From: Alphaproteobacteria bacterium MarineAlpha9_Bin6
Lineage (GTDB): Bacteria > Pseudomonadota > Alphaproteobacteria > UBA7887
Assembly: GCA_002937585.1 (NCBI GenBank)
Contig: PTKE01000007.1
Coordinates: forward strand, 1-61,404
Reading direction: 5' to 3'
Length of the DNA: 61,404 nucleotides
Below the pieces are notes generated by a model, which saw only the letters and a list, made by a program, of their open reading frames with translations, was not told the origin of the DNA and did not search any database. The position numbers were made by a program, and so were the translations under genes. Positions 12,275 through 13,873 of the stretch are shown piece by piece; within the stretch, counting starts at the first letter, position 1; every line of letters starts with the position of its first letter.

Positions 12275-12398
12275 AGAATTAATATGCGCGACTTACTTAT
12301 CACTGGCAAGCTGCCCCGCGGCAATCAACCATTGACAGCCGGAGCGCCTTGGACTGTAAAGGTCGAATCGGAATCTATTAGCCCAAATGAGGTTAGAG

Positions 12399-12707
12399 AT
12401 GTCAGTGGCTAGGACAATTGAGCGTAAGCTAACTGAACAACTTCACCCCCAGTCAGTGGACGTTCTCGACCAATCTCACCAACATGCCGGCCACGCTAGC
12501 GCACCTCCAGGCGGTGAATCTCATTTTCATGTTGAAATCGTTGCTGAAGCCTTCAACAACCTTAATCGTGTTGCGCGACAAAGACTGGTATACCAAATTC
12601 TAAATGATGAACTCGCTGGACCTGTCCATGCACTATCGCTCAACACCTTGACCCCAGCTGAGGCCATGACTAAGCCCTATAGTAATGGCGGGCATAACCG
12701 CAAATAA
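12399..12707 (+). CDS. BolA family protein
   Basis: IERKLTEQLHPQSVDVLDQSHQHAGHA...ESHFHVEIVAEAF....R..R...VY..L..E; start chosen at MSVART inside the ORF that begins at 12387. Confidence 0.92.
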   Translation: MSVARTIERKLTEQLHPQSVDVLDQSHQHAGHASAPPGGESHFHVEIVAEAFNNLNRVARQRLVYQILNDELAGPVHALSLNTLTPAEAMTKPYSNGGHNRK

Positions 12708-12756
12708 AACCAATCATTACTTCGCGACAACAACACGAAATCGGACGACTGCCTAG

Positions 12757-12945
12757 GAACACCACATTACAGGCGGCCTTGGTGGAGCGGTAGCGGAGCT
12801 CTTAGCCAAACACCTCCCAACCCCGATGCGACTAATCGGTATGCCCAATAAATTCGCTGTCGTTGGTCCGACCGCCAGAGTTCGTGCACGTTACCACTTG
12901 AGTATTTGTGACATCTCTCAGGCATGTCTCGATTTTATGGATTGA
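12757..12945 (+). pseudogene. Transketolase C-terminal domain remnant (5' truncated)
   Basis: Frame starting at 12757 reads EHHITGGLGGAVAELLAKHLPTPMRLIGMPNKFAVVGPTARVRARYHLSICDISQACLDFMD* (stop 12943-12945). This resembles the EEHxxxGGLGxAVAE...GM.D.F...G end of transketolase C-terminal subunits. An in-frame TAG at 12754-12756 precedes it and there is no family-like sequence upstream. Confidence 0.85.
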
Positions 12946-13018
12946 GAAACCGTCTCTGAAAGCTTTTTCATAAACATACAAAATGCTATGTTTAAGTATT
13001 CCTCGGGAGAAATTCGAA

Positions 13019-13873
13019 ATGATTCGCTATGAGAAACTCGACGGACCATTCGGCCGCTCTGTATATGGCCTCGATCTAGCAGACGGCATTCCCGACGGAA
13101 AATTTCAAAGACTGACAAAGGCTCTCTACGACCACCGTGTGCTGGTTCTTAAAAATCAGGCGTGTAGTGTGGATCAATATCTTAAGTTTGGCCGATTATG
13201 GGGGACACCCATACAGCATGTGGTTCATACTTCTCGGACGCCCGATTACCCAGACTTACTCTCCGTTGGCAATTTACCGGATAAGGACGATGTAAGCCGC
13301 AATAGTGCGGCGTTTTGGCATACTGATCAAGCCTATGAAGCCGATGTAGCAACGGCAACAATGCTTTACGCACGGAAGGTGCCGAGTATCGGCGGAGAGA
13401 CGCGTATAGTCGACACGAAAGCCGCATATGACGACCTTGATAGCTCCATAAAGAAAAACATCGAAAACCTAATGGCTGTTCATTTTTACGGCTCAACCTC
13501 GGGCCGCGACGGGGAACGCAAAACGCGGGAGTTAACAGACTCCCAGGCAGCTCGGGTGCCGCCGGTATTACATCCCCTCGTGCGCCCTCATACCATAACC
13601 GGAGAACAGGCCCTTTATGCCGTTGCTGGCACTGCGTTCGCTATCGACGGGATGAAAGAGGGTGAATCAAATAGCTTGATTGCTACGTTGAAAGCACATT
13701 GTTTACAAGACAAGTATCTGTACGCGCACAAATATGAGGTCGGCGACATTGCCATTTGGGACACCCAAATGACCTTACATTGTGCAACTCCGATCGGCGC
13801 ACCAAAAAATCCTGATTCTGAACGCTTGTTGTGGCGGATAAGCGTTCGCGGAAAACCGGCCATCTACCAATGA
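13019..13873 (+). CDS. TauD/TfdA family Fe(II)/2-oxoglutarate dioxygenase
   Basis: FWHTDQAYE (HxD), GGETRIVDTKAAYDDL, VGDIAIWDTQMTLHCA, ERLLWRISVRG. Start at MIRYEKLDGPFG. Confidence 0.93.
   Translation: MIRYEKLDGPFGRSVYGLDLADGIPDGKFQRLTKALYDHRVLVLKNQACSVDQYLKFGRLWGTPIQHVVHTSRTPDYPDLLSVGNLPDKDDVSRNSAAFWHTDQAYEADVATATMLYARKVPSIGGETRIVDTKAAYDDLDSSIKKNIENLMAVHFYGSTSGRDGERKTRELTDSQAARVPPVLHPLVRPHTITGEQALYAVAGTAFAIDGMKEGESNSLIATLKAHCLQDKYLYAHKYEVGDIAIWDTQMTLHCATPIGAPKNPDSERLLWRISVRGKPAIYQ

Follow-up and report, generated by a model that had tools for sequence, protein, structure and literature searches.

The split-gene transketolase of Carboxydothermus hydrogenoformans (6yaj/6yak; PMC7661550) provides the best match among solved structures to the DNA described here, and related two-gene systems are found in proteobacteria. 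By scanning GTDB genomes with an alignment of TktB-like proteins from the family of the genome studied here, we recovered 39 loci that encode intact relatives. Most come from draft genomes, 36 are alpha- or betaproteobacterial, and at 38 a TktA-like gene lies upstream of the TktB-like gene. Within the family itself, intact tktA-tktB-like pairs exist in other genera (genome G005, contig C2; genome G007, contig C4), and five further copies, outside the family, came from 385 sampled genomes of the class. Here, we describe the spacer between bolA and a TauD-type dioxygenase gene in a window of 61,404 nucleotides (contig PTKE01000007.1 of the alphaproteobacterial genome MarineAlpha9_Bin6, GCA_002937585.1; all positions are those of the window). 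It probably contains a non-functional relic of a split transketolase, truncated in place by deletion, from a tktAB pair that would once have stood between bolA and tauD.

The neighbourhood of the intact pairs differs from the bolA-tauD setting. None of the 39 GTDB loci has a close tauD within its flank of at most 6 kb (the best paralogue is 30% identical), and just two include bolA, 3.9–5 kb downstream of tktB with different genes between, a presence that was judged incidental. An intact bolA-tktAB-tauD locus was found neither among these 39 loci nor in three genomes of the window's own genus (G001, G002 and G003). At two loci from alphaproteobacterial drafts (L059, 7952–9616, and L064) the intact tktAB lies upstream of a gene that, going by its sequence, resembles that for the large subunit of a soluble diiron monooxygenase. 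The tktB of locus L080 groups with betaproteobacterial environmental drafts; it comes from a MAG record titled Bordetella parapertussis, a doubtful species assignment.

On the plus strand of the window, positions 12757–12945 translate into 62 codons closed by a TGA (12943–12945) and preceded by an in-frame TAG (12754–12756), and re-reading the sequence gave this frame and both stops exactly as in a preliminary description of the window. That description had likened the frame to a split-transketolase C-terminus, and similarity searches bear it out far above chance: the stretch is the pseudogene remnant of a TktB-like (C-terminal chain) gene, comprising its last 62 codons and stop. Searched against genomes of the same family, the 62 residues match intact genes in two other genera at 66% (E = 8.2e-23) and 64% (E = 1.9e-20). 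They are 55–70% identical to the intact relatives at the 36 alpha- and betaproteobacterial loci (L056–L091) and 37–45% identical to those at the other three (L092–L094; Bacillota, Komeilibacteria and Bacteroidales). Of the solved structures, 6yaj matches best through its C-terminal chain (E = 9.3e-5), residues 277–332 of which align with the tail. The tail carries the C-terminal-domain similarity, including EEHxxxGGLGxAVAE with the first E of EEH as a stop codon, and its own stop falls where most TktB-like relatives end. The Pfam model Transketolase_C (part of PF02780) reaches 17 bits (E = 0.0056), under its gathering score of 25.9, and no NCBIfam model matches the tail, since it covers no more than the end of the domain. 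Compared with an intact chain, for which we used the TktB-like protein of G005, there is no complete PF02779 plus PF02780 chain of about 310–330 aa, and the open reading covers the last 62 residues only. Judged by these comparisons, the tail is the C-terminus of the second (TktB-like) subunit of a proteobacterial split transketolase.

The TAG replaces the invariant first Glu of the AEEHH motif; all 37 intact copies compared have E here, preceded by Ala. The preliminary description saw no family similarity upstream of this stop, which is contradicted by a weak but significant match over about 11 codons: the in-frame FATTTRNRTTA and its stop (12721–12756), compared with the family segment AAEETRGIVTAE, reach a score that only 0.028% of random windows attain. 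The alignment scored upstream of the TAG sets FATTTRNRTTA against the family's AAEETRGIVTA, and by this position-specific score 12721–12753 (plus strand) tentatively represents 11 more probable fossil codons. The fossil therefore probably starts near 12724, some 17 nt past the bolA stop, and totals about 74 codons, with a tentative deletion junction near 12721–12724. A competing reading of the same bases comes from the left part of the spacer (12708–12738), which may be shared with the sister genomes (p of about 0.04).

Both neighbours are on the plus strand. The upstream bolA (12387–12707) is intact, and a DnaJ-domain gene, assigned with Pfam, lies on its far side. The downstream TauD/TfdA-type dioxygenase gene (13019–13873; PF02668, E = 4.6e-53) begins at a start common to its relatives. 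Its longest open reading frame opens at ATG 12983, within a conserved promoter-like block; the relatives share 13019, which suggests that an annotated start at 12983 would be 12 codons too long. This block, TTTTCA-16 nt-TATGTT (12964–12991, plus strand), is conserved in the same-genus spacers and is the probable promoter of the tauD-type gene, and a strict consensus promoter scan listed no site on the plus strand. Neither Rfam families nor terminator-like sites were found in the spacer.

The rest of the gene is missing from the genome, a draft of 2.38 Mb in 116 contigs with completeness given as 98.6%. It contains no TktA-like gene (PF00456) and no further TktB-like piece of the split-transketolase family, and the other matches are distant paralogues. 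A check for an intact transketolase elsewhere in the genome, which had been proposed with the preliminary description, found an ordinary one-chain enzyme of 688 aa on contig C73 (TIGR00232, 792.7 bits; cut-off 682.25). A protein of 651 aa on contig C21 is read, from its sequence, as DXP synthase.

The tail fragment has no match in the three same-genus genomes. G001 and G003 each have the tauD-type gene immediately after bolA on a single contig; in G002 the two genes lie at two contig ends, and overlapping sequence gives the same bolA-to-tauD spacer. A short trace is nevertheless visible in G001 and G002, where TQTRLDFMK and a stop, compared with SQACLDFMD and a stop in the window, lie 72 nt upstream of the tauD start; the corresponding distance in the window is 73 nt. 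The DNA of the trace reads ACC CAA ACA CGT CTT GAT TTC ATG AAA TAA in G001 and TCT CAG GCA TGT CTC GAT TTT ATG GAT TGA in the window, an identity of 20/30 nt (p of about 4e-5, with 13 offsets allowed for); for G002 it is 19/30 nt (p of about 2e-4). In the spacer of G003 no such trace can be made out clearly. The most plausible reading of the trace in G001 and G002 is that it represents the final codons of this gene in a more eroded state, and because these two genomes keep them at this site, the gene would have stood there in the common ancestor. This suggests that a gene pair once lay between bolA and tauD and was deleted separately in each lineage. G001 also carries, on contig C171 (L055, 4745–6249), a different, contig-truncated split transketolase pair with 35–49% identity to the G005 pair. 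It adjoins sugar-nucleotide epimerase-like and SIS-domain-like genes (names read from sequence) and probably belongs to a surface-polysaccharide cluster.

Loss of function appears to be recent in the window's lineage. Of 23 near-invariant columns, 21 are kept in the tail and two have changed (D31N and G47H). Under a neutral model, and provided that all 23 columns had been under constraint until release, two changed columns and no further stop correspond to at most about 0.12–0.16 changes per site since release. Four-fold-site divergence between the window and G001/G002 in five neighbouring genes is about 0.75–1.5 substitutions per site, with most values near 1, which gives each lineage roughly 0.5 since the split between the species. 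A tail left unconstrained since that split would be unrecognisable, and the figures thus indicate a recent loss. Because the loss would be recent here, and the sisters lack nearly all of the gene, the sisters would have lost it separately. In a tree of 62 columns the end branch of the remnant measures 1.07–1.18, compared with a median of 0.11–0.14 for functional copies, which is about tenfold. The remnant falls with an alphaproteobacterial clade (L057, L059, L064, L066, L067 and L087) rather than with the copies of its own family, although a grouping with the latter cannot be rejected (p-AU 0.16–0.36) and 62 residues place it unreliably.

The main rival explanation is that, in the window's lineage, a fragment of a split transketolase gene was inserted into a previously empty bolA-tauD spacer, by illegitimate recombination or transfer, and never was a working gene there. 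The absence of the fragment from the three same-genus relatives, the placement of the remnant outside its family's copies (with the reservation just given) and the other neighbourhoods of the intact pairs in other genera would all fit such an event. We nonetheless consider it unlikely, given that G001 and G002 share the tail's last codons at the same distance from tauD, the fossil ends at a natural gene end in the sense direction, and neither ends of a mobile element nor a target duplication was noticed when the spacer sequence was read. An assembly or sequencing error masking a really intact gene is hardly credible, even though the draft comprises 116 contigs. Miscalled bases could not account for the loss of about 1.6 kb, the missing part is present on none of the contigs, the flank downstream of the tail can be aligned with the spacers of the sister genomes, and the stated completeness is high. 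The preliminary description had itself named a relative carrying the full-length gene in the same place as a sign of sequencing error; the bolA-tauD comparison gave no intact pair there, which argues against that explanation.

Continued translation of the tail into a small protein, beginning at an internal start, had also been suggested; that such a product is maintained by selection finds no support. The 62 codons are open without a frameshift and most near-invariant residues survive, but recent decay explains this residual conservation, and the first in-frame start, ATG 12826, lies past the motif, would give 39 aa without the conserved EHH-GGLGG and is not preceded by a Shine-Dalgarno-like sequence. 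A protein that is absent from all close relatives, sits on an accelerated branch and lacks the enzyme's cofactor-binding domains is a very improbable product of selection. That the tail has been kept for some other reason, for instance as a short peptide or as RNA within the 5' region of tauD, seems highly doubtful, and it probably has no present function.

We hence favour deletion in place, as the preliminary description had proposed in calling the stretch a deletion-truncated fossil tail; intact pairs in the same family, their absence from this genome and the stop at the first codon of EEHH support that proposal, and the insertion of nearby DNA that it also invoked is not needed. The remnant has the marks of a pseudogene: recognisable homology, loss of most of the gene, a disabling mutation, changes at conserved sites (E to stop, D31N and G47H) and faster evolution than functional copies. 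We infer that the genus ancestor carried an intact pair, TktA-like then TktB-like, at this site, that the losses were parallel and that events ran in the following order. In the window's lineage a deletion would have taken tktA and roughly three quarters of tktB, so that the 3' spacer of bolA came to abut tktB at about codon 245. What was left, about the last fifth of the gene, would then have gained the nonsense mutation and a few amino-acid changes at conserved positions. In the sister species a larger deletion would have left only the last ten or so codons. The loss was presumably tolerated because the ordinary one-chain transketolase remained.

The relic accounts for the unannotated bolA-tauD stretch and offers a dated snapshot of gene loss, in which an accessory two-subunit transketolase was apparently lost separately in sister species while the housekeeping enzyme was kept. 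It is a case of ordinary gene decay and alters the understanding of no system. The split transketolase of C. hydrogenoformans has a C-terminal chain that aligns with the tail, but in contrast to that system the locus described here keeps only about 62–74 codons, which a stop interrupts within the conserved motif, and lacks a gene for the N-terminal partner. The proteobacterial TktA/TktB enzymes show the identity reported above over the tail and have the same C-terminal end, but they are intact two-gene pairs in other neighbourhoods. The locus also resembles deletion-truncated bacterial pseudogenes, with which it shares a short 3' relic beside an intact neighbour, a function that is redundant with a gene elsewhere and further erosion in sister genomes, and from which it differs in nothing notable.
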